Of a DNA stretch of 35,028 nucleotides, positions 14,466 to 27,184 are shown piece by piece. The notes beneath the pieces were generated by a model that was not told the origin of the DNA, searched no databases, and saw only the letters and a list, made by a program, of their open reading frames with translations. The DNA is taken from the NCBI GenBank assembly GCA_000720995.1, contig JOEL01000062.1, positions 1 through 35,028 on the forward strand, read 5' to 3'. The DNA is from Streptomyces celluloflavus (GTDB taxonomy: Bacteria > Actinomycetota > Actinomycetes > Streptomycetales > Streptomycetaceae). Positions within the stretch are counted from its first letter, which is position 1. The number at the start of each line of letters is the position of its first letter. The position numbers were made by a program, and so were the translations under genes.

Positions 14466-15425
14466 TCAGCCGTGTTTGAGGCCCAGCACCTCGGCCGCCG
14501 CGAAGGTCTCGTTCGGCGGGCGCGCGGCGTAGTACGGCGTCAGCACCGCGTCCAGTTCGTCGAAGCTGAACGCCTCGTGCGGGGCGTCGAACTTGGCGGC
14601 GATCCGCGGCCGTTCGGCGATGGCGACCATGCCGCCGTGCACGACCAGCAGCTGACCGTTGACCCCGGCCGCGGCCGGTGAGGCCAGATAGCCGACGAGC
14701 GGTGAGACGTGTTCGGGGGCGAGCACGTCGAGGGTGCCGTCCGCCGGTTCCTGGAAGCCCGCGAAGACGTCCTCGGTCATCCGGGTGCGGGCGCGCGGGC
14801 AGATGGCGTTGGCGGTCACCCCGTATTTGGCCAGCGCCAGCGCCGTGGAGGTGGTGAGGCCGACGATGCCGCCCTTGGCCGCCGCGTAGTTGGGCTGCCC
14901 CGCCGATCCGGCGAGGAACGCTTCGGAGGAGGTGTTGACGATCCGGCCGTGGACCGGGCCGCCGGCCGCCTTGGCGCGTTCGCGCCAGTGGATAGCGGCG
15001 AAGTGCGTGGTGTTGAAGTGCCCCTTGAGGTGGACGCGGATCACCGTGTCCCACTCGTCCTCGCTCATGGAGAAGACCATCCGGTCGCGCAGGATGCCCG
15101 CGTTGTTGACCAGGATGTCGAGCTGTCCGTACGTGTCGACGGCGAGTTGGACCAGGGCGCGGGCCTGCTCGAAGTCGGCGACGTCGCCGAGGTGGGCGGT
15201 GGCCCGGCCGCCCGCCGCACGGATCCCGGCGGCGGTCTCCTCGGCGGGCGCGGCGGATGCCTCGCCCGAGCCGTCCCGTCCCGGCTGCCCGAAGTCGTTG
15301 ACGACCACATTGGCGCCCAGCCGGGCCAGTTCCCGCGCCTCGGCCCGGCCCAGCCCGCGCCCGGCGCCGGTGACGATCGCGGTCAGGCCCGCGAGTGGTG
15401 CTGACTGTGCTGCCGGTTCTCCCAT
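14466..15425 (-). CDS. SDR 3-hydroxyacyl-CoA dehydrogenase, Hsd4A-like
   Basis: A 319-residue short-chain dehydrogenase. The NAD-binding motif GAGRGLG is near residue 20, NNAGILRDRM follows, and the catalytic Ser-Tyr-Lys are in NTSSEAFLAGSAGQPNYAAAKGG. The insert after VVNDFGQ, the NAICPRARTRM segment and the C-terminal extension are typical of the dehydrogenase part of peroxisomal multifunctional enzyme 2. Mycobacterial Hsd4A (Rv3502c, about 317 residues) is the closest functional model known to me; it oxidises (3R)-hydroxyacyl-CoA in cholesterol side-chain degradation. Start ATG 15425 has TGGGAGGAC upstream. It is third in a minus-strand operon after a MaoC hydratase and an alcohol dehydrogenase. 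Confidence 0.88.
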   Translation of the reverse strand: MGEPAAQSAPLAGLTAIVTGAGRGLGRAEARELARLGANVVVNDFGQPGRDGSGEASAAPAEETAAGIRAAGGRATAHLGDVADFEQARALVQLAVDTYGQLDILVNNAGILRDRMVFSMSEDEWDTVIRVHLKGHFNTTHFAAIHWRERAKAAGGPVHGRIVNTSSEAFLAGSAGQPNYAAAKGGIVGLTTSTALALAKYGVTANAICPRARTRMTEDVFAGFQEPADGTLDVLAPEHVSPLVGYLASPAAAGVNGQLLVVHGGMVAIAERPRIAAKFDAPHEAFSFDELDAVLTPYYAARPPNETFAAAEVLGLKHG

Positions 15426-15436
15426 TGCCGTCCTCC

Positions 15437-15499
15437 CAGGTCGCTCAGGTCTCTCAAATCCCTCAGATCTCTGAGGTCGATCGGGTCGCTCAGATCTCG
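15437..15499. repeat. Seven-unit 9-bp tandem repeat between ADH and SDR genes
   Basis: Units of nine bases begin at 15437: CAGGTCGCT, CAGGTCTCT, CAAATCCCT, CAGATCTCT, GAGGTCGAT, CGGGTCGCT, CAGATCTCG. The array fills the gap between the two genes, covers the dehydrogenase stop codon and last codons, and ends next to the SDR ribosome site. Confidence 0.8.
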
Positions 15500-16566
15500 A
15501 TGCAGGTGCGCAGCGCGGTGCCGGTGCGCATCTGGTCGACGGCGTCGTTGACCTCGTCGAGCCGTACCCGGTGGGTGATCATGCCTTCGAGGTCGATCCG
15601 GCCGGCCCGCCACAGGGCGATGGCCCGCTCGTAGGAGCGCAACACGTCGGCGCCGCCGTACAGCGACGGCAGAATCCGCTTCTCGTCGAAGAACAGCTCG
15701 AACATATTGACCTGGAAGGTGTCGTCCAGGGCGCCCGCGCCGACGATGCACAGGGTGCCGCCGCGCCGGGTCATCTCGTAGGCGGTGCGGGCGGTGGCGG
15801 ACTTGCCGACCACCTCGAAGACGTAGTCGAAGCCCTCCCCCGCGGTGATCCGGGCCTTGGCGTCGGCGAACTCCTCGGGGGCGAGTGCCTCGGTGGCGCC
15901 GAAGCGCAGCGCGGCCTCGCGGCGGGCGGCCACCGGGTCGACGGCGATGATCTGGGCCGCGCCACCGGCCCGCGCGCCCTGAATGGTGGCGATACCGACG
16001 CCGCCGCAGCCGATCACCGCGACCGAGGACCCGGCTTCCACCCGGGCGGTGTTGAGGGCCGCGCCGAGCCCGGTGGTGACACCGCAGCCGATCAGTGCGG
16101 CGATCTCGTACGGGACGTCGTCCGGGATCGGGACCGCGCAGTTGGCGGCGACGACGACCTCCTCGGCGAAGGTGCCGGTACCGGCGAAGCCGAAGACCTC
16201 CCCGCCGGCGCGCCGGAAGTTGGGTGTACCGGCGTTCAGGAAGCCCGCCAGGCACAGGTGGGTCTGGCCGCGCTTGCAGGACGCGCAGCTGCCGCAGGCG
16301 GGCAGCCAGCACATCAGCACCCGATCGCCCTGGTGGAGGCCGGTGACGCCGTCGCCGACGTCGAGGATCTCGCCGGCGCCCTCGTGCCCGGGGACGAAGG
16401 GGGCGGGCTGCGGCAGCACCCCGCTCATCGCGGAGAGGTCGGAGTGGCACAGTCCGGTCGCCCGTACCCGCATCCTGACCTTGCCGGGCCCGAAGCCCAC
16501 CGCCTCGACGTCGTCGAGGACTTCGAGGGTTTCCTGTCCTGTCTCGTGCAGTACGGCTGCGCGCAC
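15490..16566 (-). CDS. Zinc-dependent alcohol dehydrogenase (MDR family)
   Basis: A 358-residue medium-chain dehydrogenase. The catalytic-zinc region TGLCHSDLSAMSG and GHEGAGEILDVGDGV, the structural-zinc cysteines in CGSCASCKRGQTHLC and the Rossmann motif GCGGVGIATIQGARAGG are intact. This is the class III-like group often called S-(hydroxymethyl)mycothiol or aryl-alcohol dehydrogenase in actinobacteria. GTG 16566 is chosen because GAGGAG lies seven bases upstream; an in-frame ATG at 16599 would add eleven residues without a ribosome site. Placed between a MaoC hydratase and a hydroxyacyl-CoA dehydrogenase, it probably oxidises an alcohol or aldehyde of the same lipid pathway. The exact substrate is unknown. 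Confidence 0.9.
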   Translation of the reverse strand: MRAAVLHETGQETLEVLDDVEAVGFGPGKVRMRVRATGLCHSDLSAMSGVLPQPAPFVPGHEGAGEILDVGDGVTGLHQGDRVLMCWLPACGSCASCKRGQTHLCLAGFLNAGTPNFRRAGGEVFGFAGTGTFAEEVVVAANCAVPIPDDVPYEIAALIGCGVTTGLGAALNTARVEAGSSVAVIGCGGVGIATIQGARAGGAAQIIAVDPVAARREAALRFGATEALAPEEFADAKARITAGEGFDYVFEVVGKSATARTAYEMTRRGGTLCIVGAGALDDTFQVNMFELFFDEKRILPSLYGGADVLRSYERAIALWRAGRIDLEGMITHRVRLDEVNDAVDQMRTGTALRTCIEI

Positions 16567-16608
16567 GGTGCGGCTCCTCTTGTACGTACGTACGGACATG
16601 TGCGGGGT

Positions 16609-16664
16609 GGGATGAGGTGGGGGCGAACAGAGTGGGGTGAGGTGGGGGCGAGCAGAGTGGGGTG
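16609..16664. repeat. 25-bp tandem duplication in the MaoC-ADH gap
   Basis: Units 16609-16633 and 16634-16658 differ at two positions and are followed by the start of a third. They lie 5' of the alcohol dehydrogenase ribosome site. The same gap holds a TACGTACGTACG stretch (16583-16594). Confidence 0.75.
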
Positions 16665-16686
16665 GCGGTCGTATGCGCCGGGTGCG

Positions 16687-17583
16687 TCAGGTGTGGTCGA
16701 TGACGGTGTCGGCGAGGACCGGGGCGTCGTCGCGGTCGGCGGCGGTGACCGCCACCTGGATGCGGCCGGGCTCCGGTGCCTCGCGCCAGATCCGCAGGCG
16801 CAGCGTCTCGCCGGGGAAGACGACGCCCGCGAAGCGGGTGGTGTACGCGCGGACGCGGGAGACGTCGCCGCCCAGCGCCAGGTCGACGACGGCCTTGAGG
16901 GTGACGCCGTACGAGCACAGACCGTGCAGGATCGGCCGGTCGAAGCCGGCGAGCCGGGCGAAGTCCGGGTCGGCGTGCAACGGGTTCCAGTCGCCGGAGA
17001 GGCGGTAGAGCAGCGCCTGGTCCTCACGCAGGTACCGCTCGGCGGTCAGGTCGGGGGCGCGCGAGGGGAGTTCGAGGCGTGTGGCGGGGCCGCGCGCACC
17101 GCCGAAGCCGCCCTCGCCGCGCACGAAGATCTGGGTGTCGCAGGTCCACAGCGGACCGTCCTGGTCGGCGACTTCGGAACGGAGCACGATGACGGCGGCG
17201 TTGCTCCGGGTGTGCCCCTTGTCGTAGACGGCGGGGACGGTGGAGGTCTGGGTGGCGCGGCCGCTCACCGGGAGCGGGCGGTGCACGGTGACGCTCTGGC
17301 CGCCGTGCAGGACGGCGGCCAGCTCGACGTCGATGCCGGGGGCGGAGAGCCCGCCGGCCAGCGCCATACCGCCGCCCGCGACGGTGGCGAAGCTGGGCAG
17401 TACGTGCAGCGCGCGCTCCAGGGTGTAGCGCAGTTCGCCGGGGTCGGTGGCGGGGTGCGGTTTCTCCGGGGTGGCCGCGCCGGCGCCGATGCCCAGGTGG
17501 TAGAGCTGGACGTCCTTGTGGTCCCAGGCGAGTTCGGTGGTCCGCGGCTCGGCGGAGGTGGCCTTGGCGGCGTCGATGGGCAT
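16687..17583 (-). CDS. Double-hotdog MaoC enoyl-CoA hydratase, ChsH3/Hsd4B-like
   Basis: A 298-residue hydratase with two hotdog domains. The C-terminal one carries the hydratase-2 motif NPLHADPDFARLAGFDRPILHGL (Asp and His catalytic, about residues 198-220). The N-terminal half, including WDHKDVQLYHLGIGAG and FATVAGGG, is the degenerate partner fold. This matches eukaryotic-type (R)-specific 2-enoyl-CoA hydratases and mycobacterial Rv3538 (Hsd4B/ChsH3), which hydrates sterol side-chain enoyl-CoA; the comparison is from memory. Start ATG 17583 has GAAGGAG upstream. It heads the operon MaoC-ADH-SDR, and a KstR-like palindrome lies about 108 bases upstream. Confidence 0.9.
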   Translation of the reverse strand: MPIDAAKATSAEPRTTELAWDHKDVQLYHLGIGAGAATPEKPHPATDPGELRYTLERALHVLPSFATVAGGGMALAGGLSAPGIDVELAAVLHGGQSVTVHRPLPVSGRATQTSTVPAVYDKGHTRSNAAVIVLRSEVADQDGPLWTCDTQIFVRGEGGFGGARGPATRLELPSRAPDLTAERYLREDQALLYRLSGDWNPLHADPDFARLAGFDRPILHGLCSYGVTLKAVVDLALGGDVSRVRAYTTRFAGVVFPGETLRLRIWREAPEPGRIQVAVTAADRDDAPVLADTVIDHT

Positions 17584-17690
17584 GGGGCGGTCGCTCCTTC
17601 ACCACGGTGTGAGACCCCGGCCCGGCCGTCCGCACCGTCGGCCGCGCCGGGGTCGTTTCTGGTCGGCCCGGCCGCGCCCCACACACACTT

Positions 17691-17706
17691 CTAGAACGCG
17701 TTCTAG
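17691..17706. promoter_or_regulatory. KstR-like operator (16-bp perfect palindrome)
   Basis: CTAGAACGCGTTCTAG is a perfect palindrome. Its 14-base core TAGAACGCGTTCTA (17692-17705) fits the published KstR consensus TnnAACnnGTTnnA. It lies in the divergent region between the MaoC operon and the ABC transporter operon, and a matching site precedes the acyl-CoA dehydrogenase at 26764. Confidence 0.7.
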
Positions 17707-17753
17707 CCGATGGCACTCATGTATAGCCGATCCGCCCGGCGCCCGGAAGTCCC

Positions 17754-17803
17754 CTGACACCATGTCAGATACGGGCTCCCGACAGGCACCATGACATTTG
17801 TCA
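17754..17803 (+). promoter_or_regulatory. Two TGACA/TGTCA inverted repeats before the ABC-HK-RR operon
   Basis: CTGACA-CCA-TGTCAG (17754-17768) and TGACA-TT-TGTCA (17792-17803) are both perfect and sit 60-110 bases upstream of the ATPase start. They are plausible autoregulatory sites for the NarL-type response regulator at the end of the operon. Confidence 0.6.
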
Positions 17804-17863
17804 GGGGTGATCGCATACATTCGCATCTGCCGCGGCCGGGTAACTCTGCGTAGCGTCGACAAC

Positions 17864-18841
17864 ATGACGACAACAGGCGTACGAGAGGCGGCCGGACCGG
17901 TGAGCCGCCCGCGGAGTGCGGGTGGCACGGCGGCGGTGGCGTTCTCCGGGGTCACCCGGAGTTACGGTGCGGTCCGCGCGGTGGACGGGCTGGATCTGAC
18001 GATCGGCAGCGGCGAGACGGTGGCGCTGCTCGGCCGCAACGGCGCCGGGAAGTCCACCACCATCAGCATGCTGCTGGGGCTGCTGCCGCCCGGTTCGGGG
18101 ACGGTGCGGCTGTTCGGCGAGGAGCCCCGGGCGGCGGTGCGGGCGGGCCGGGTGGGGGCCATGCTCCAGGACGGCAAGCCCATCCCGCGGGTCACCGTCC
18201 GCGAACTGGTCGCCTTCGTCGCCGCCACCTACCCCCGCCCCATGCGGGTGGCGGAGGCCCTGGAGCTGGCGGGCCTGGGGGCCTTCGCCGACCGCCGGGT
18301 GGACCGGCTGTCCGGCGGGCAGGCCCAGCGGGTCCGCTTCGCGGTGGCGCTGGCCGGCAACCCCGGACTGCTGGTGCTGGACGAGCCGACCGCGGCGCTG
18401 GACGTCGAGGCCCGGCGGACGTTCTGGCGCGCCATGCGGGCCTACGCGCGGCGCGGCAACACCCTCCTGTTCTCCACCCACTATCTGGAGGAGGCGGACG
18501 ACAACGCCGACCGGATCGTGGTGATCGACCGCGGCCGGGTGACCGCGGACGGCAGCGGCGAGGAGATAAAGCGGCGGGCCGGCGGAGCGCTGGTCTCGTT
18601 CGAACTCGCGGGCGCGCCGGCCGGGCGGCTGCCGGAGCTGCCCGGGGTGACCGCGGTCGAGGTGCGCGGTGACCGCGCGCTGCTGCGCACCGCGGACTCC
18701 GACGCGACGGTCCTGGCGCTGGCCGGGCTCGGCCTCGTCCGCGGTCTGGAGGTCGCGCCCGCCAGCCTGGAGGACGCGTTCCTGCTGCTCACCGCCGCCC
18801 CGGCCGACGCCGGCGGCCCGTCCCCGGAGGAGACCGTCTGA
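17864..18841 (+). CDS. ABC transporter ATP-binding protein
   Basis: A 325-residue ATPase of the ABC-2 drug-export type. Visible motifs are Walker A GRNGAGKST (about residues 59-67), a Q-loop in MLQDGKPIPRVTV, the signature LSGGQAQR, Walker B LLVLDEP and the H-loop STHYLEE. The C-terminal 90 residues form the accessory domain usual for DrrA/CcmA-like exporters. ATG 17864 is preferred over an upstream start at 17798, which would lie in the operator region. Its stop shares one base with the permease ATG (TGATG). With the permease, a histidine kinase and a response regulator it makes a four-gene operon typical of Streptomyces antibiotic-sensing export systems. Confidence 0.93.
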   Translation: MTTTGVREAAGPVSRPRSAGGTAAVAFSGVTRSYGAVRAVDGLDLTIGSGETVALLGRNGAGKSTTISMLLGLLPPGSGTVRLFGEEPRAAVRAGRVGAMLQDGKPIPRVTVRELVAFVAATYPRPMRVAEALELAGLGAFADRRVDRLSGGQAQRVRFAVALAGNPGLLVLDEPTAALDVEARRTFWRAMRAYARRGNTLLFSTHYLEEADDNADRIVVIDRGRVTADGSGEEIKRRAGGALVSFELAGAPAGRLPELPGVTAVEVRGDRALLRTADSDATVLALAGLGLVRGLEVAPASLEDAFLLLTAAPADAGGPSPEETV

Positions 18842-19569
18842 TGCTCGACTACATCCGCCTCGAAGTGCGCCGCACGCTGCGCGACAAGTCCTTCGTCCTC
18901 TTCGGTATCGGGATGCCGGTGCTGATGTATCTGCTGTTCACCCGCATCGCGGCCGGCCCCGGCGGCGCCGACGCGGAGTGGAAGGTCTCCGCGATGGTGG
19001 GGATGGCCGCGTACGGCGCGCTGGGCGCCGCGATCGGCACCGGCACCGGTGTCGCCGAGGACAAGAGCCTGGGCTGGCTGCGGCAGCTGCGGAGCACACC
19101 GCTGAGCCCGGCGCGGGTGGTGGTCGGCCGCGGGCTGACCGGTTCGGTCACGGTGCTGCCCGCCATCGTGTCGGTGCTGCTGGCGGGCGGGCTGGTCAAC
19201 GGCGTCCGGATGCCGGTGTGGCAGTGGGCCGCGCTGATCGTGCTGCTGTGGATCGGCACCACGCCCTTCACCCTGCTCGGCCTCGGCAACGGCTACCGCC
19301 TCTCCTCGCAGGCCACCGGCCTGGTCAACACCGGCTGTCTGCTGCTGCTCTCGATAGTCGGCGGTCTGTGGTTCCCGGTGGCGGCGTTCCCCGACTGGCT
19401 GCGTTCGCTCGCCGTCTGGACGCCCGCCAACCGCTTCGCCGACCTCGGGCAGAGCGTCACGCACGGCAGCGCGCCGGGCGTCACCACCGTGGCGGTGCTG
19501 GCCGCGTGGCTGGCGCTGTTCGGCGGATACGCGGTGTACGCGTACCGTCGGGCCGCACGCACGGTGTGA
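18841..19569 (+). CDS. ABC-2 type permease
   Basis: A 242-residue membrane permease with about six hydrophobic helices, e.g. SFVLFGIGMPVLMYLLFTR (about residues 17-35), VTVLPAIVSVLLAGGLVNG, WAALIVLLWIGTTPFTLLGLG, TGCLLLLSIVGGLWFPVAAF and VAVLAAWLALFGGYAVYAY. It lacks an ATP-binding domain and must pair with the ATPase encoded just upstream. The N-terminal LDYIRLEVRRTLRDKSF is typical of ABC-2 exporters. Start and stop codons overlap its neighbours by one base each (TGATG), so the four genes are translationally linked. The substrate is unknown, but antimicrobial peptide or lipid export is common for this operon type. Confidence 0.92.
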   Translation: MLDYIRLEVRRTLRDKSFVLFGIGMPVLMYLLFTRIAAGPGGADAEWKVSAMVGMAAYGALGAAIGTGTGVAEDKSLGWLRQLRSTPLSPARVVVGRGLTGSVTVLPAIVSVLLAGGLVNGVRMPVWQWAALIVLLWIGTTPFTLLGLGNGYRLSSQATGLVNTGCLLLLSIVGGLWFPVAAFPDWLRSLAVWTPANRFADLGQSVTHGSAPGVTTVAVLAAWLALFGGYAVYAYRRAARTV

Positions 19570-20957
19570 TGTACGAGGACAAGGACCGGGAAACGGCAGT
19601 GCGGAACACACGGGAACGGGGCTGCGCCAAGGGCCCCTGGGGCAGGGGTGCCCGGGGCGGCGCGGACGACGGTCCGGGCGAGCCGGGGTGGCCGGAGCCG
19701 GAGCCCGGCAAGGGGCCGGGCCGGTACACCTTCCTGCCCTGGCTGCTGCTGGGCCTGGGCGCGTTCTCCCACATCATCCAGGGGAGGTCGGGCAACCCCT
19801 GGCTGGCCGGCGCCGCTCTCCTCGCCTTCAACTCCCTCTACATCAGCGTCGTCTTCGCCTCCTTCGACCCCCGGCGACGCGACACCCGGTATCCGCTCTA
19901 CGCCCTGGGCGCGCTGACCGTGCTCACCTACGCCGTCGCGCTCGGTTTCGGCGGCACCTGGTTCCTGTTCTTCCCGCTGCTGTCGCTGGCCTCCGGCACG
20001 GTGCGGGCCCTGCGCGGCAAGAAGCTCGGCCTGTGGCTGATCGCGCTCAGTTGCTCGGCCGGGGTTCTGGCGGGCCTGCGCGGTGACGAGCCCTGGGGCT
20101 CGTTCGGCGTCGGGTACGGCACCTTCCTGTCCGGCATGGTGACGGCGACGGTCCTGAGCCTGTTCGACACCATCAACGAGCTGAAGGCCACCCGGCAGGA
20201 GCTGGCCCGCAGCGCCGTGGAGAAGGAGCGGCTGCGGTTCTCCCGCGATCTGCACGATCTGCTGGGGCACACGCTGTCCGTGGTGGTGGTCAAGGCCGAG
20301 GCGGTCCGCCGGCTGGCGCCGCGCGATCTGGACAAGGCGCTCGCACAGGCCGCCGATATCGAGGCGGTCGGCCGGCAGGCGCTGACCGAGATCCGGGAGG
20401 CGGTCACCGGCTATCGCGAGGGCAGCCTCGCCACCGAGCTGGACCGGGCCCGTTCGGCGCTGGAGGCGGCCGGGATCGAACCGGTCGTGCGGCAGTCGGG
20501 GCCACCGCTGCCGCCGCAGGCCGGGGCGCTGCTGGGCTGGGTGGTCCGCGAGGGCGTCACCAACGCCGTCCGGCACAGCGGCGCGACCCGCTGCGAGATC
20601 GAGGTGCGCGCCGACGCCGAACGGGTCCGGCTGACGCTCACGGACGACGGCCGCGGCCCCGTCGGCACCGGTCCCGCTCCGGTCCCCGGCCAGGACGGGC
20701 GGCGTGGCCACGGTCCGCACTGGTACGCCGAGGACGGCCGGGGCGGCGCGGGGGCGGCGGACGGCGGGCCCGGTGCGCGGGGGGAGCACGGCGCGGGCCC
20801 GGTGGGCGGTACGGGTCTGAAGGGGCTGGCCGAACGGCTGGCCGTGGTGGGTGGCACGCTGACGAGCGGCCCCGACGGCCGGCACGGCTTCCGGGTCGTG
20901 GCCGAGCTGCCGGTGGACACGGTCGAGATGACGGATGTGGCGGAGGTGGCCAGGTGA
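19569..20957 (+). CDS. NarL-type (HisKA_3) sensor histidine kinase
   Basis: A 462-residue kinase. After a Gly/Glu-rich cytoplasmic leader (about 1-52) come five or six transmembrane helices (about 55-205) with almost no extracellular domain, an intramembrane-sensing layout like DesK. The dimerisation/phosphoacceptor helix contains DLHDLLGHTLS with the His near residue 234. The ATPase domain has NAVRHS and LTDDGRG, and GTGLKGLAER follows. A 40-residue Gly-rich insertion (about 375-415) separates the last two motifs. It probably senses the membrane state or the cargo of the co-encoded transporter. It overlaps the permease by one base and the response regulator by four (GTGA). Confidence 0.92.
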   Translation: MYEDKDRETAVRNTRERGCAKGPWGRGARGGADDGPGEPGWPEPEPGKGPGRYTFLPWLLLGLGAFSHIIQGRSGNPWLAGAALLAFNSLYISVVFASFDPRRRDTRYPLYALGALTVLTYAVALGFGGTWFLFFPLLSLASGTVRALRGKKLGLWLIALSCSAGVLAGLRGDEPWGSFGVGYGTFLSGMVTATVLSLFDTINELKATRQELARSAVEKERLRFSRDLHDLLGHTLSVVVVKAEAVRRLAPRDLDKALAQAADIEAVGRQALTEIREAVTGYREGSLATELDRARSALEAAGIEPVVRQSGPPLPPQAGALLGWVVREGVTNAVRHSGATRCEIEVRADAERVRLTLTDDGRGPVGTGPAPVPGQDGRRGHGPHWYAEDGRGGAGAADGGPGARGEHGAGPVGGTGLKGLAERLAVVGGTLTSGPDGRHGFRVVAELPVDTVEMTDVAEVAR

Positions 20958-21559
20958 TCAAGCTCCTGTTGGCCGAGGACCAGGGAATGATGCGGGGCGC
21001 GCTGGCGCTGCTGCTCGACCTGGAGGAGGACATGGAGGTGGTGGCCCAGGTCCCGGCGGGCGATCAGATCGTCGACGCCGCCCTGGCGGCCCGGCCCGAT
21101 GTCGCGCTGCTGGACATCGAGTTGCCCGGCCGCAGCGGTCTGGACGCCGCGGCCGATCTGCGCGACCGGCTGCCGTCCTGCAAGGTGCTGATCGTGACGA
21201 CGTTCGGCCGGCCCGGCTATCTGCGGCGGGCGATGGAGGCGGGGGCGTCCGGGTTCCTGGTCAAGGACGGCCCGGTGGAGGATCTGGCGGCGGCGGTCCG
21301 GCGGGTGCTGGCCGGTGAGCGGGTCATCGACCCGGGGCTGGCCGCGGCGGCGCTGAGCGCCGGGCCCAATCCGCTCACCCCGCGCGAGCGCGATGTGCTC
21401 ACCGCGGCGGTGGACGGTGCGACGGTCGCCGATATCGCCGGCAAGCTGCATCTGTCCCAGGCCACCGTCCGCAACTACCTCTCGGCGGCCATCGGCAAGA
21501 CCGGCACCCGCAACCGCATGGAGGCGGTACGGGCCGCCCGCCGCAACGGCTGGCTGTAG
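20954..21559 (+). CDS. NarL/FixJ-family response regulator
   Basis: A 201-residue regulator. The receiver domain (about 1-118) has the acidic pair in LLAEDQGMMRG, the phospho-Asp in VALLDIELPG and the Lys in GFLVKDG. A LuxR-type HTH occupies the C-terminus (about 135-198) with LTPRERDVLTAAVDGATVAD and LHLSQATVRNYLSAAIGKTG. GTG 20954 overlaps the kinase stop as GTGA. It is probably the cognate partner of that kinase and the likely binder of the two TGACA/TGTCA repeats before the operon. The DesK/DesR pair of Bacillus is the best-known relative of this arrangement; the effector here may be drug or lipid stress. Confidence 0.94.
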   Translation: MIKLLLAEDQGMMRGALALLLDLEEDMEVVAQVPAGDQIVDAALAARPDVALLDIELPGRSGLDAAADLRDRLPSCKVLIVTTFGRPGYLRRAMEAGASGFLVKDGPVEDLAAAVRRVLAGERVIDPGLAAAALSAGPNPLTPRERDVLTAAVDGATVADIAGKLHLSQATVRNYLSAAIGKTGTRNRMEAVRAARRNGWL

Positions 21560-21697
21560 CGGGCGGGGCGGCCCGTACCGGGGAGCGGGCGGGGCGGCGC
21601 CCCTGACCGGCCGCCCCACGACCTCAGTCGCCCCGCCGCCGTCCCCGGCCCCGTACGGGAAGCACCGTCGGCCCCCGCCCCCAACCGCGCGCCCCGT

Positions 21698-23143
21698 TCA
21701 CCCGTGGGCGGCCTCCGCATGCCGCCGGGGCAGCGCGACGATCATCAGCAGGATGCTGCCCAGCAGCACCGCCGCGCCGACATGGAACGCCAGGCCGTAG
21801 CCGCCGGCCAGGGCCGCCGGGTCGTGGCCCCCGGCGATCCGGGAGGCGGCGACCGTGGACAGGACCGACAGGCCCAGCGCGCCGCCCATCTGGCGCGAGG
21901 TGTTCATCAGTCCCGCGACCAGGCCCTGGTCGGCGGGGTCGGCGCCGGACGTGGCGATGGAGGCGATCGGTGTCGCGGTCAGGCCCGCGCCGAGCGACAT
22001 CAGGATGCCGGGGCCCAGGAGCGTGCCGAGGTAGCTGCCGTCGGCGCCCATGGTGCCCTGCCAGAGCATGCCGCACCCGGAGATCACCGCGCCCGTGACG
22101 GCCAGGGTCTTGGCGCCCAGGCGGTGCATGAGCCGTGGTGCGGCCTTCGAGCCCAGGACGATGCAGAGCGAGTGCGGGATGAAGGCCAGCCCGGCCTCCA
22201 GCGGCGAATAGGACAGCACGTTCTGCGTGTACAGGGAGAGGAAGTACCACATGGAGAACATCGCGGCGCCGGCCAGCACCATCGCCGCGTTCGCCGCGGA
22301 GACCGAGCGCAGCCGGAAGAGCCCCAGCGGCATCAGCGGCGCCTTGGTCCGGGCCTCGACGGCGATGAAGACCGCCACGACCACGAGCCCGGCGGCCAGC
22401 GGTACGAGCGCGGCCGCCGACACCCAGCCGTGGGTCTCGGTCTGCACGATGCCGTACGCCACCAGCGCGAGCCCGGCGGTCACCAGCAGCGCGCCGGGCA
22501 CGTCCAGCCGCCGCCCGGTGCGCTGCCGGCTCTCGGTGAGCCACCGCGCCGCACCGGCCAGGACGAGCGCGCCGACCGGCACGTTGATCAGCAGCACCCA
22601 GCGCCAGGACAGGAACTCGGTGAGCACCCCGCCGACCAGGCCGCCCACCGCGCCGCCGCCCGCACCGACCGCCGTCCAGGTGGCTATCGCCCGGGTCCTG
22701 GCCGCGCCCGCCGGGAAGGACGTGGTCAGGATCGTGAGGGTGGCCGGGGAGAGCACGGCCGCGCCGACGCCCTGGACGGTGCGGGCCGCGATCAGCTGCC
22801 AGGGCTCCTGCGCCAGCCCGCCGCCCAGGCTCGCGACCGTGAAGAGCGCCAGGCCGACGACGAAGATCCGCTTGCGGCCGAAGAGGTCCGCGGCCCGGCC
22901 ACCGAGCAGCATGAACCCGGCGAAGGTGATGACATAGGCGTTGACGATCCACTGGAGGCCCAGTTCGCTCAGGCCGAGCCCGGACCGCATGGCGGGCAGC
23001 GCCACATTCACGACGGAGACGTCCAGGACGACGAGGAACTGCCCGGCGCAGACCAGCAGCATCACCAGCCACGCCGGGGCGGCCGAGCGGTTCAGGGTTC
23101 CGGGCGGCGTGGTGGTCCGGGCAGTCGGCAGCATGCCGCCCAT
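21698..23143 (-). CDS. MFS exporter, DHA2 (14-helix) family
   Basis: A 481-residue drug:H+ antiporter-like protein. Hydrophobic helices span nearly the whole sequence, consistent with 14. Family motifs include LDVSVVNVALPAM in helix 1 (motif D1), GGRAADLFGRKRIF (motif A) and ARTVQGVGAAVLSPATLTIL (motif B); WRWVLLINVPVG also fits. Start ATG 23143 (MGGMLPTA) or ATG 23134 is possible; extension to 23311 is basic, non-hydrophobic and unlikely. It lies 190 bases downstream of the thiolase on the same strand, so it may be transcribed with the acyl-CoA dehydrogenase-thiolase operon or separately. Substrate unknown. Confidence 0.92.
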   Translation of the reverse strand: MGGMLPTARTTTPPGTLNRSAAPAWLVMLLVCAGQFLVVLDVSVVNVALPAMRSGLGLSELGLQWIVNAYVITFAGFMLLGGRAADLFGRKRIFVVGLALFTVASLGGGLAQEPWQLIAARTVQGVGAAVLSPATLTILTTSFPAGAARTRAIATWTAVGAGGGAVGGLVGGVLTEFLSWRWVLLINVPVGALVLAGAARWLTESRQRTGRRLDVPGALLVTAGLALVAYGIVQTETHGWVSAAALVPLAAGLVVVAVFIAVEARTKAPLMPLGLFRLRSVSAANAAMVLAGAAMFSMWYFLSLYTQNVLSYSPLEAGLAFIPHSLCIVLGSKAAPRLMHRLGAKTLAVTGAVISGCGMLWQGTMGADGSYLGTLLGPGILMSLGAGLTATPIASIATSGADPADQGLVAGLMNTSRQMGGALGLSVLSTVAASRIAGGHDPAALAGGYGLAFHVGAAVLLGSILLMIVALPRRHAEAAHG

Positions 23144-23333
23144 GCTCGCATTTATCTGATGAACGGCGCATCGGCATATCGGGGTACTCGGCGCACCGGA
23201 CCTCCGTCGCGAGACCCGGGACCTGCGCCGGAGGCCCGGTCGGCCCCCGTCAGCGGCACCCCGGGGCGGGGCGCCGCCGGCGTGCGGCAACTCCCCGCCC
23301 GCACACCGCACTTGACACCGGCCGGCACCGGCG

Positions 23334-24527
23334 TCAGATGCGCAGCAGGGTCACCACCGCGGCACCGCCCAGGCCGATGTTGTGCGCCAGTCCGACCCGG
23401 GCCCCGGCGACCTGCCGCTCCCCCGCCGTACCGCGCAGCTGCCACACCAGCTCGGCGGCCTGCGCGAGCCCGGTCGCGCCCAGCGGATGCCCCTTGGAGA
23501 TCAGCCCGCCGGACGGGTTGACCACCCAGCGCCCGCCGTAGGTGGTGGCGCCGTCGGCGACCAGCTTCCCGGACTCCCCGTCCGCGCACATGCCCAGCGC
23601 CTCGTACGTCAGCAGTTCGTTGACGGAGAAGCAGTCGTGCAGCTCGATGACGTCCACGTCCTCGATGCCGAGCCCGCTCGCCGCGTAGACCTGCCGGGCC
23701 GCGGCCCGCGACATCGGCTTGCCGACCACGTCGATGCAGGAACCGGCGGCGAAGCTCTCCTCGGTGTCGGTCACCATGGCCTGGGCGGCGATCTCCACCG
23801 CCCGGTCCGCCAGCCCGTGGGCGCGTACGAACCGTTCGGAGGCGACGACGGCCGCGGCCGCGCCGTCCGAGGTCGGGGAGGACTGGAGCTTGGTCAGCGG
23901 CCGGTGGACGGTCCTGGACTCCAGGATCTCCGCGACCGAATAGACGTCCCGGAACTGGGCGTAGGGGTTGTGTGCGGAGTGCCGGTGGTTCTTGGCGCCG
24001 ACCGCGGCGAGCTGTTCCTCGGTGGTGCCGTACCGCGCCATGTGCTCGCGGGCGGCGTTGCCGAAGATCTGGGCGGTGGGCGGGGTCTTCGCGAAACCGT
24101 GCCCGGCGGCCATCACGCCGTAGTGCCGGGCGACCGGGGAGGCGTGGAAGTCGCCGGAGTCCGCGCCGGCGCCCAGCGCGCCCCGTTTCATCTTCTCGAA
24201 GCCGAGCGCCAGCACGCAGTCGTTGATGCCCGCCGCGACGAACTGGCGGGCCATCATCAGCGCGGTCGCGCCGGTCGCGCAGTTGTTGTTGACGTTGTAG
24301 ACGGGGATGCCGGTCAGCCCCAGTTCGTACACCGCCCGCTGACCGGCCGTCGATGCCTGGTGGCAGTAGCCGACCGGCACCTGTTCGACGGCCTCGTAGC
24401 CGATCCCGGCGTCGGCGAGCGCCTTGGTGCCCGCCTCCTTCGCCATGTCCCAGTACTGCCACTCGCGGGTCTCGGGCTTCTCGAACTTCGTCATCCCGAC
24501 GCCGACGAGGTACGCCTTGCCAGTCAT
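23334..24527 (-). CDS. SCP-x type thiolase / lipid-transfer protein (Ltp-like)
   Basis: A 397-residue thiolase-fold enzyme of the sterol-carrier-protein-x class. The active-site Cys lies in NVNNNCATGATALMM (about residues 78-92), later motifs are VIELHDCFSVNELLTYEALG and GGLISKGHPLGATGLAQ, and the C-terminus is GLGGAAVVTLLRI. Mycobacterial relatives (Ltp1-Ltp4) either cleave beta-ketoacyl-CoA or catalyse retro-aldol removal of the last sterol side-chain unit. The SCP2 domain is absent, as is usual for bacterial forms. GGAAGGAC precedes the ATG. It follows the large acyl-CoA dehydrogenase by 44 bases. Thiolytic versus aldolase activity cannot be decided from sequence alone. Confidence 0.9.
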   Translation of the reverse strand: MTGKAYLVGVGMTKFEKPETREWQYWDMAKEAGTKALADAGIGYEAVEQVPVGYCHQASTAGQRAVYELGLTGIPVYNVNNNCATGATALMMARQFVAAGINDCVLALGFEKMKRGALGAGADSGDFHASPVARHYGVMAAGHGFAKTPPTAQIFGNAAREHMARYGTTEEQLAAVGAKNHRHSAHNPYAQFRDVYSVAEILESRTVHRPLTKLQSSPTSDGAAAAVVASERFVRAHGLADRAVEIAAQAMVTDTEESFAAGSCIDVVGKPMSRAAARQVYAASGLGIEDVDVIELHDCFSVNELLTYEALGMCADGESGKLVADGATTYGGRWVVNPSGGLISKGHPLGATGLAQAAELVWQLRGTAGERQVAGARVGLAHNIGLGGAAVVTLLRI

Positions 24528-24571
24528 ACGTGTCCTTCCGTGGACTCGGTCGAGGGGTCGGCCCGGGGAGC

Positions 24572-26752
24572 TCAGCCGAGGGGGCGGGGCTCCGGGTCGC
24601 GTGGCAGGCCGAGCAGCCGTTCCGCGACGACGTTCAGCTGTACCTGGGTGGTCCCGCCGGCGATGGTCAGGCAGCGCGACATCAGGAAGCCGTGCAGTGC
24701 CCGCTCACCGGCGCCCTCGCGCACCGCGCCACCCGGGCCGAGCAGTTCGAGGGCCAGTTCGGCGGCCTTCTGCTGATACCTGGTCTGGACGAGCTTGCGG
24801 ATACTGGCACCGGCGCCCGGTTCCCGGCCGGCGACCTGCTGGAGGGTGCCGCGCAGCCCGATGCAGCCCAGCGCGTGCGCCTCGGCGGCCAGTGCGCCCA
24901 CTCTCGCGCGCACCGCGCCGTCCAGCTCCGCGGAGCGTTCGATGAGCGTCTGCAGACCGGTGTCGAAGGTCAGCTGGTCGGCCATGTGGACGCGTTCGTT
25001 GCCCAGCGTGGTGCGGGCGACCCGCCAGCCGTCGCCGACCGCGCCGACGACCGCGTCGGCGGGCAGCAGCACATCGTCGAAGTAGACCTCGTTGAAGAGG
25101 GCGTCGCCGGTGATCTCCGTCAGCGGGCGGATGTCGATACCGGGGCTCGCCATGTCGACGAGGAAGAAGGTCAGGCCGCGGTGCCTGGGCGCGTCCGGGT
25201 CCGTACGGGCGAGCAGGATGCCGTGGCCGGCCCACTGGGCCGCCGAGGTCCACACCTTCTGGCCGTTGATCCGCCAGCCGTCGTCGGTCCGTTCGGCGCG
25301 GGTGCGCAGCGACGCCAGGTCCGAACCGGCCTCCGGTTCGGAGAACAGCTGGCACCACAGCAGATCGCCGCGGAGCGTCGGCGGCAGATACCGCTCCTGC
25401 TGCGCCTGGGTGCCGTGCGCGAGAAGTGAGGGGACGACCCAGGCGGCGATGCCCGGTCCGGCGATCTCGACCCCGGCGGCCGCCAGTTCCTGCTGGACGG
25501 CGAGCTGGTGGACGGGGCCGGCGCCCAGTCCGTAGGGCTCGGGGAGGTGCGGGGCGGCGTAGCCGGTGGGGGCCAGCGCGCGGCGGGCGGCCGCCGGGTC
25601 CAGACCGCGTACGCCGTCGATGACGGTACGGGCCCGCGTACGGTACCCGGCCGCCGCGGCGGGCAGGTCGAGCCGCAGTTCGCGGCGGGCGCCCCCGGCG
25701 GCGTACCGGGCGGCGCGCAGCCGGTGGGTGTCACCGCCGCCGAGCAGCTGGCGGACCACGGTCGCCCGCCGCAGATGGAGATGGGCGTCGTGCTCCCAGG
25801 TGAAGCCGATGCCGCCGAGGATCTGGATGCAGTCCTTGGCGCAGTCGAGGGCGGCGTCCAGGGCGGTCGCGGTGGCCAGCGCGGCGACCAGACCGCGGAC
25901 CTCGGGGGGCTCGTCGACGGCGCGGGCCGCGTCCCAGACCAGGGCGCGGGCCTGTTCGCAGCGGACGAGCATCTCGGCGCAGAGGTGTTTGACCGCCTGG
26001 AACTGGCCGATCGGGCGGCCGAACTGCCGGCGCGTCGCGGCGTGTTCGGCGGCGGTGTGCAGCGCCCAGGCGGCGGTGCCGCAGCCCTCGGCGGCGAACA
26101 GCACCCCGGCCAGATCGCGGACGAGGGCGCCGTCCACGGTCAGCAGCCGCCCGGCGGGTACCGGGACGCCGTCGGCGCGCACCTCGGCGGTGGGCCGGGT
26201 CGGGTCGGCGCTCTCCTGGACCCGTACGGCCAGGGTGGCGGCGTCGGCCGCGAGCCAGACGGTACCGGTGGCCGTCTCGGCGGCGAGTACGAGCAGGTCC
26301 GCGTCGCCGCCGGCCAGGACGGGCGGTGCGGTGCCGTCCAGTACATAGCCGTCGGCGCTCTCGACGGCGGTGAGCGATCCCGGGCCGAGCGCGACGGCGC
26401 CGATGCGCTCCCCGGTGGCCAGGGCGCGGGCCAGGGCCGGGGCGCCGCCGCGGTGGAGCAGTCCGGCCGCGAGGGCGCCGGGCAGGAAGGGGCCGGGGAA
26501 CGCGGCCCGGCCCAGTTCCTCCAGGACGACGGCCAGGTCCAGGAGTTCACCGCCGCCCCCGCCCGCGGCCTCGGGCAGATGCAGTCCGAGCAGGCCCTGA
26601 GCTGCCAAGAGGTCCCAGTAGGCGGGCCGTCCGGGCCGGCCGGGCGCGGTGTCGAGCAGCTCGCGCAGCGCTTCGGGCGGTACGGTCCGCGCGGCCCAGC
26701 CGCGGGTCGCCTCGGCCAGGTCGCGTTGCTCTTGCGTGATTCCGATGCCCAT
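24572..26752 (-). CDS. Fused two-domain acyl-CoA dehydrogenase, FadE34-like
   Basis: This encodes 726 residues, twice a normal acyl-CoA dehydrogenase. The N-terminal copy (about 1-345) includes EAAGGGGGELLDLAVVLEELG, RRQFGRPIGQFQAVKHL and CIQILGGIGFTWEHDAHLHL. The C-terminal copy (about 370-726) includes CQLFSEPEAGSDLASLRTRA, WRINGQKVWTSAAQWA, NEVYFDDVLLPADAVVG and a final GGTTQVQLNVVAERLLGL. M. tuberculosis FadE34 (Rv3573c, about 711 residues) has this same fused form and dehydrogenates sterol side-chain CoA esters. Start ATG 26752 (MGIGITQEQRDLAEA) fits family N-termini; the longer open frame upstream is spurious. A KstR-like site lies 12 bases before the start. It heads an operon with the thiolase. 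Confidence 0.92.
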   Translation of the reverse strand: MGIGITQEQRDLAEATRGWAARTVPPEALRELLDTAPGRPGRPAYWDLLAAQGLLGLHLPEAAGGGGGELLDLAVVLEELGRAAFPGPFLPGALAAGLLHRGGAPALARALATGERIGAVALGPGSLTAVESADGYVLDGTAPPVLAGGDADLLVLAAETATGTVWLAADAATLAVRVQESADPTRPTAEVRADGVPVPAGRLLTVDGALVRDLAGVLFAAEGCGTAAWALHTAAEHAATRRQFGRPIGQFQAVKHLCAEMLVRCEQARALVWDAARAVDEPPEVRGLVAALATATALDAALDCAKDCIQILGGIGFTWEHDAHLHLRRATVVRQLLGGGDTHRLRAARYAAGGARRELRLDLPAAAAGYRTRARTVIDGVRGLDPAAARRALAPTGYAAPHLPEPYGLGAGPVHQLAVQQELAAAGVEIAGPGIAAWVVPSLLAHGTQAQQERYLPPTLRGDLLWCQLFSEPEAGSDLASLRTRAERTDDGWRINGQKVWTSAAQWAGHGILLARTDPDAPRHRGLTFFLVDMASPGIDIRPLTEITGDALFNEVYFDDVLLPADAVVGAVGDGWRVARTTLGNERVHMADQLTFDTGLQTLIERSAELDGAVRARVGALAAEAHALGCIGLRGTLQQVAGREPGAGASIRKLVQTRYQQKAAELALELLGPGGAVREGAGERALHGFLMSRCLTIAGGTTQVQLNVVAERLLGLPRDPEPRPLG

Positions 26753-27184
26753 GGCGGGCAGACTAGAACACGTTTCAATCCGGCGGAAGGCCGACCGCCG
26801 GACGGGGACGATCGGCCCCTTTGTTCCTGTTCTCCGGGAAAAGATCCGGATGCGTTCCGGAAACGGTCCGGCGAATTCCGCCACCGTCCCCGATTCCTTC
26901 TCCCACCGCTCCCCGCAAGCGAATTCACCGCTTTCGGGAAGCGCGGAAGCGGTAAGGGATCCACGGCCGCGGGCGGCGCCGCGGCACGAAATGCGCACCG
27001 CCGTTCCGATACCGGAATACGCCCGGACCGGCCCGACCGGCACGGGAGTCCGCCGGGGCACCGCCCACCCGCACACCGCCCGTCCGGCCGCGTACGGCAC
27101 CATGAGCCACCGGACCGCGGCCGGCCGCACCGCGGCGGCGCCCGGCCCCGCATCCGCCGGACCGCACGACACAGGAGGAAGCCC
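26753..27184. other. 432-base divergent intergenic region
   Basis: It holds the KstR-like site near its left end and the AGGAGG ribosome site of the methyltransferase at its right end. A 65-codon open frame (ATG 26991 to TGA 27188) overlaps the methyltransferase ATG as ATGA, but it is Pro/Thr/Arg-rich, lacks a ribosome site and has no recognisable features, so it is not called as a gene. The AT-richer stretch 26810-26950 probably holds the promoters. Confidence 0.5.
26764..26777 (-). promoter_or_regulatory. KstR-like operator before the acyl-CoA dehydrogenase
   Basis: TAGAACACGTTTCA fits TnnAACnnGTTnnA at all fixed positions and shares TAGAAC with the site at 17692-17705. It is 12 bases upstream of the start codon, where a bound TetR-type repressor would block transcription start. 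Confidence 0.65.

Follow-up and report, generated by a model that had tools for sequence, protein, structure and literature searches.

A probable KstR regulon in Streptomyces that oxidises sterol side chains, mostly without degrading the rings

Why should two separate lipid operons of a streptomycete carry the same KstR-like operator? The question is raised by 35,028 nucleotides of Streptomyces celluloflavus DNA (assembly GCA_000720995.1, contig JOEL01000062.1, below C62), the whole of which we call the window; the genome amounts to 8.68 Mb in 193 contigs. A MaoC-ADH-SDR operon (17583-14466; ADH, alcohol dehydrogenase; SDR, short-chain dehydrogenase/reductase) and a fused acyl-CoA dehydrogenase-thiolase operon (26752-23334) lie on the minus strand, 5.8 kb apart, where a preliminary description of this DNA had placed them about 6 kb from each other. 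In our judgement both operons probably belong to a KstR regulon controlling the oxidation of sterol side chains, the nucleus probably being left in most Streptomyces. The best reading of the data as a whole is a genus-wide regulon of this kind, mostly without ring degradation. KstR is the repressor known from mycobacterial cholesterol catabolism; a homologue is found in 140 of the 150 Streptomyces sampled (E <= 1e-30), and a close homologue of the ring-degradation marker HsaC in 8 of the 150.

Operators and their regulator

The passages of Kendall 2007 that deal with the motif define it, for M. smegmatis and M. tuberculosis, as TAGAAC(N2)GTTCTA (PMC1995591). Our model operator has the form TAGAACnnGTTyyA. 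Sites were sought with a loose pattern, TNNAACNNGTTNNA, and a strict one, TAGAACNNGTTYNA, and scored with a weight matrix trained on the 46 distinct 20-mers out of 80 named Streptomyces loci. The loose pattern occurs three times in the window:

17692..17705, no strand assigned: KstR-type operator TAGAACGCGTTCTA, a perfect palindrome, upstream of the MaoC-ADH-SDR operon; matrix score 22.8
26764..26777, no strand assigned: KstR-type operator TAGAACACGTTTCA, upstream of the fused dehydrogenase; matrix score 28.5
16976..16989, no strand assigned: third loose-pattern match, within the MaoC gene; matrix score 15.4; probably coding

The first two are the palindromes of the preliminary description, whose coordinates proved correct. 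One hundred dinucleotide shuffles of the window held 0.02 matches on average and none reached three; the best matrix score among 100 Markov-shuffled windows was 14.2, below all three sites, that at 16976 included. It is hardly credible that the two operators are palindromes by mere chance or serve a different TetR regulator. Although the loose pattern also matches coding sequence (at 16976 and, elsewhere in the genome, at C6:51206 and C27:17760, both inside called reading frames and set aside as coding), the two operators score well beyond the shuffles, they are conserved in orthologues, and the same operator stands before kstR. The third match sits in MaoC codons for D-W-N-P-L-H and, because it lies within the gene and has a counterpart at the same position in 4 of 22 MaoC loci, is best read as coding.

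Upstream of MaoC, a perfect TAGAACGCGTTCTA is present in 15 of these 22 loci (21 genomes) and another match in L086; the remaining six have no upstream site (G069, G043, G145, G105, G133 and the second copy of G070). All 11 loci orthologous to the fused dehydrogenase have an upstream operator, which is absent from the single paralogue, L070. Across the genome the loose pattern matches 32 times per strand and its reverse, the control, 9 times. The strict pattern marks six distinct places: a pair in the window, another pair on contig C67, and one each on C2 and C17.

A KstR-type regulon had been proposed from the window alone, and a KstR-family TetR gene does exist in the genome, on C67, between a glycosyltransferase gene and an aldehyde dehydrogenase-ferredoxin operon. 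Searched against the PDB, its product has five top hits at 109.5-111.5 bits (three are named KstR, two, 3mnl and 3bjb, only TetR), followed by Mce3R at 44 and KstR2 at 27 bits; the best NCBIfam model is KstR at 172.5 bits, with the next at 44. By these scores it is to be classed as a KstR-family homologue, not as an equivalog in the sense of NCBI. In a midpoint-rooted tree of 17 entries (one locus entered twice) the Streptomyces proteins form a single clade (0.976), next to which stand the fadE34-linked KstR proteins of two other families; the separation of two paralogues from the remaining entries has a support of 1.00.

The kstR promoter of our genome itself contains an operator, TnnAACnnGTTnnA. 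The motif is present in 29 of the 30 kstR loci that are the best hits (our own included), and in a larger set, the best 80 of 539, all named Streptomyces, it stands upstream of kstR in 79, mostly as TAGAACAAGTTTCA; the 1473 kb of those 80 loci hold 122 motif sites against 1 in the reversed control. The Streptomyces matrix also recognises, with a score of 29.1, the site between kstR and fadE34 in G399, a genome of another family, so the operator is shared across families. In the class, a kstR homologue occurs in 101 of 296 genomes (E <= 1e-20). Glycosyltransferase and methyltransferase genes are divergent from kstR across its operator (L016:12234-14637, on C67), and their proximity to kstR persists in two further families of actinobacteria (L145, L148).

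The gene order of relatives brings the regulator and the window together. In G137, G064 and G090 the sequence of the window, in reverse orientation, runs on into that of C67 at about 23.7 kb. In our assembly C62 and C67 are unjoined, and their outer ends have no counterpart in these relatives. The cluster comparison used 13 query proteins (for four of them, FadE34, CYP125, FadA5 and the 27.2 kb methyltransferase, positions only). The distance between the fused dehydrogenase and kstR is about 9 kb in G137, G064, G090 and G086, 11-32 kb in G023, G149, G083, G070 and G075, and 519 kb in G012, so that 9 of 10 kstR-positive genomes with the fused dehydrogenase have both within 32 kb.

The two operons and the predicted regulon

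The MaoC operon comprises the following features:

16687..17583, minus strand: MaoC, double-hotdog enoyl-CoA hydratase with MFE-2 hydratase N-terminal and MaoC domains; 3khp 175 bits
15490..16599, minus strand: zinc alcohol dehydrogenase, NDMA-dependent ADH / mycothiol-type subfamily; TIGR03989 297 bits, below the cut-off of 440
14466..15425, minus strand: SDR, 3-hydroxyacyl-CoA dehydrogenase type (Hsd4A/17beta-HSD4-like); NF005862 474 bits, cut-off 414
17719..17725, minus strand: TATACAT, putative -10 of the operon; TATACA in our genome and 15 of 15 aligned relatives, TATACAT in 14 of 15

The domain content bears out the ChsH3-like double hotdog of the preliminary description. Its Hsd4A-like SDR is a reasonable assignment, 17beta-hydroxysteroid dehydrogenase 4 being among the best PDB hits; the best NCBI model is named 3-oxoacyl-ACP reductase. 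The operator would begin 13 nt downstream of the putative -10, at about +8 of the likely start. An ABC transporter and a two-component system occupy 17798-21559, between the two operons. In G090 and G083 both are missing from this position but the MaoC operator persists, which argues that the operator serves MaoC and not the transporter.

In the second operon the relevant features are:

24572..26752, minus strand: FadE34-type fused (double-length) acyl-CoA dehydrogenase, 726 aa; 46% identity to kstR-adjacent FadE34 (L141, G399)
23334..24527, minus strand: SCP2-thiolase type 1; NF006102 621 bits (cut-off 436); 6hsj 513 bits
26760..26765, minus strand: TAGTCT, putative -10; overlaps the operator by 2 nt and stands 7 nt before the ATG

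When the FadE34 adjoining kstR in G399 is used as a query, its best hit in our genome is the fused dehydrogenase of the window (563 bits, next 219; a one-way search), which confirms the FadE34-like identity first suggested. The thiolase had been called Ltp-type, a name that holds only in the broad sense: the protein matches SCP2-thiolase type 1 at 513 bits and 6ok1, which we take to be Ltp2, at 90, and is not the Ltp2 aldolase. The short distance between the putative -10 and the ATG suggests a leaderless fadE34 transcript; 3 of 11 relatives (L061, L065 and L068) have no ATG at this distance. Directly upstream of the fadE34 operator, at 26780-26794 on the minus strand, lies an inverted repeat, CTGACCTTCCGTCAG (loci L059-L069). 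Eight of 11 relatives have an exact copy, L064 and L065 deviate by one base, and the repeat is degraded in L069 and our own genome. It may be a -35 region or the site of a second regulator.

The regulon predicted from these sites is small, with seven operator regions accepted in our genome. On C67, TAGAACGCGTACTA separates divergent genes for CYP125 (510 bits, against 291 for CYP124 and 189 for CYP142) and FadA5 (508 bits with the PDB FadA5, next 253; NF005889 693 bits, over the cut-off of 515); among four relatives compared the site is identical in G137, G090 and G284 and changed in the spacer alone in G064. A further C67 site, between an MBL-fold hydrolase and the aldehyde dehydrogenase and ferredoxin genes, is intact or differs by one base in G137, G064, G090, G083 and G284. 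The site on C2 stands before a homologue of ChsE4 (4x28_A, 427 bits). We examined 11 strict sites lying off the cluster in relatives, of 12 listed away from known sites (G023:C1:5843596 is outside the count), and 8 of them precede the orthologue of this gene; because the loci were fetched by their site, orthologues lacking one would not show. The C17 site precedes a dehydrogenase like ChsE5/Tcur3481 (177 and 170 bits, next 75), a gene situated, with its KstR-type site, directly behind paaE of a phenylacetate operon (L020:6196-8565).

These families can be arranged into a pathway, the order of steps following their known biochemistry. A KstR dimer, on operators overlapping or directly after the -10, would block RNA polymerase. 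Once the genes are expressed, CYP125 with the co-regulated ferredoxin would oxidise the terminal methyl group, helped by the aldehyde dehydrogenase, and a ligase would then activate the product with CoA. Dehydrogenation would be the task of ChsE4 with the ChsE5-like subunit and then of the FadE34-type enzyme, hydration that of MaoC, and oxidation that of the SDR; thiolysis by FadA5 or the SCP2-thiolase would release C2/C3 CoA units. In most Streptomyces the nucleus would probably remain as a C24/C22 acid or a C19 product. KstR binding, repression, the inducer, the order of steps and the end product are, for this organism, what we infer from the genes and sites described.

Substrate, ring degradation and known systems

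What the pathway acts on was left by the preliminary description as a sterol- or polyketide-like branched acid. The sterol part is favoured, since CYP125, FadA5 and ChsE4 belong to the same regulon; the polyketide part is less so. The ring-degradation markers bear on this choice. Our genome gave no KshA_C hit at E <= 0.001 and no HsaC hit at E <= 1e-10, so that the KshA and HsaC pair taken as the mark of the 9,10-seco pathway was not found (KstD was not searched for), and the nucleus is for this reason probably left intact. KshA_C matches occur in 6 of 28 genus members of the class sample, with a strong one only in G284 (306 bits). The HsaC query, which was taken from G284 and itself scores 360 bits on the NCBI HsaC model, below its cut-off of 450, matches in 36 of 150 genus members (E <= 1e-10). 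The 8 close matches (at least 461 bits and at least 69% identity; next 272 bits) are all in genomes with kstR.

The missing markers also fit the idea that the KstR regulon serves another branched acid, a terpenoid, a polyketide or a methyl-branched fatty acid. So do the breadth of the MaoC, ADH and SDR families and the fact that, among the Streptomyces clusters compared, conservation reaches further for kstR, MaoC and the glycosyltransferase and methyltransferase genes than for fadE34. We regard a non-sterol substrate as unlikely, however, because homologues of CYP125, FadA5 (over its equivalog cut-off), ChsE4 and FadE34 under one operator point to steroid side chains. Very unlikely, in our estimate, is a decaying remnant of a complete cholesterol pathway that has lost its ring genes and has little present function. 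A remnant would account for the few Streptomyces that retain a close HsaC, always with kstR, and for a genome such as ours that has neither marker; yet the strong conservation of operators and enzymes argues for selection. Moreover, no operator was found in 20 kb around KshA and HsaC of G284 or in the 3.9 kb HsaC locus of G074, and the ring genes of these genomes therefore look separately controlled.

Several observations weigh against a sterol side-chain regulon as we propose it. The KstR homologue, at 172.5 bits, stays below the NCBI equivalog cut-off of 280, and its inducer could therefore differ. Five kstR-positive genomes have a single MaoC without an upstream site. The reversed strict pattern still gives 2 matches per strand in our genome. 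The cyp125/fadA5 site is one base off the core pattern, as is the site at the MBL-fold hydrolase and aldehyde dehydrogenase genes in G083 and G284, and no site was found at the latter genes in G129. None of the 11 off-cluster sites of relatives is at a ChsE5-like gene, so that this target is documented in our own genome alone. No CoA ligase bearing an operator was identified, nor was the third-cycle set (ChsE1/E2, ChsH1/H2, Ltp2), at which no genome-wide search was aimed. Finally, in 30 genomes picked by hand and not at random (15 with a strong and 5 with a weak kstR hit, 10 with none), MaoC is present in 19 of the 20 positive and 2 of the 10 negative genomes, and the fused dehydrogenase in 10 and 1, respectively; with the dehydrogenase in half of the genomes where MaoC is nearly constant, the core function need not be a full side-chain cycle. 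The negative genomes with MaoC, G071 and G102, are drafts of 160 and 1420 contigs, and in G071 471 bases of contig precede the dehydrogenase, so that the absence of kstR may be an assembly gap.

Set beside the mycobacterial KstR regulon, as the relevant passages of PMC1995591 present it, the Streptomyces system has the same type of TetR regulator, a closely similar DNA-binding helix and the operator TAGAAC(N2)GTTCTA. Also alike, on the strength of the same passages, are the operator in the regulator's own promoter and its overlap with, or adjacency to, the -10. The likeness extends to fadE34 beside or near kstR and to targets of the cyp125, fadA5 and chsE4 types, where the mycobacterial target list that we compared is in part general background. 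The Streptomyces regulon differs in being a small one of seven operator regions, in a fadE34 that is separated from kstR, by about 9 kb or more in relatives, instead of standing divergent to it, in the lack of a KshA or HsaC hit in our genome, and in the SCP2-thiolase type 1 behind fadE34. Regulator family and operator were known; what would be new is a smaller, genus-wide regulon aimed at the side chain, usually without the tested ring markers.

Work on single Streptomyces enzymes and species is in line with this. CYP125A13 of S. peucetius hydroxylates cholesterol (PMC9728343, in the passages concerned), and in S. lavendulae grown with yeast, cyp125A13 and choD rise and modified sterols appear (PMC13170338, likewise), a response that fits the proposed side-chain mechanism. 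Among streptomycetes the latter paper reports S. platensis to be a strong consumer of sterols and S. lividans a weak one. As would be the case in our system, a CYP125 acts there as a terminal sterol hydroxylase of Streptomyces, induced by yeast in S. lavendulae; the main text of neither paper mentions KstR, and the passages in question name no regulator or operator. The regulon would supply a regulator, an operator set and a gene list for the yeast-sterol consumption and modification that the S. lavendulae paper describes in these passages, and may be a source of side-chain-shortened steroids. According to the relevant passages of Bergstrand 2016, 55 of 57 Streptomyces genomes lack a steroid pathway (PMC4810484), a rarity that agrees with a close HsaC in 8 of our 150; the whole-pathway criterion applied there would presumably miss a KstR regulon confined to the side chain. 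Among the titles and abstract openings listed from the open-licence literature, none describes such a regulon under KstR for Streptomyces.

In its passages on the subject, a survey of 2012 traces KstR back to the ancestor of Mycobacterium and Rhodococcus and regards relatives elsewhere as paralogues (PMC3388012). A homologue with the same operator in Streptomyces argues for an older origin. Going further, we suggest tentatively, as a possibility that may well fail, that KstR did not arise late to serve the whole of cholesterol catabolism, but is an older regulator by which actinobacteria control the oxidation of sterol (or terpenoid) side chains. Streptomyces would have kept it throughout the genus for a programme confined to the side chain, perhaps to exploit fungal sterols or render them harmless in predation and polyene warfare, and ring degradation would be an add-on outside it.

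Further candidate sites

The choD gene was not counted as a target. Strict sites do occur in the first codons of cholesterol oxidase genes of two relatives, G083 and G012, both with a close HsaC (L243:3929-3942 in one of them, and L244:4104-4117; about 62-75 nt into the gene; oxidase 755 bits with 1coy), but they are intragenic and may be coding chance, and no loose motif was found within 300 nt upstream of 12 oxidase-type loci. Our genome has a cholesterol-oxidase-like gene of its own (C3:16644-18263, L262; 52% identity to the L243 oxidase), with no loose KstR-type match in the 300 nt upstream. The acyl-CoA dehydrogenase pairs on C1 and C31 showed no matrix hit above 12 in the stretches fetched. 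Also set aside as coding was C4:21323, which by eye appears to lie inside a reading frame; the strict site L247 of the kstR-negative G010 is inside a called frame.

One loose site stands closer to the accepted targets: TGTAACCGGTTTCA at C13:20448 (L021:7449-7462), with a matrix score of 19.2, lies close to where two overlapping called frames end and may mark an eighth target.

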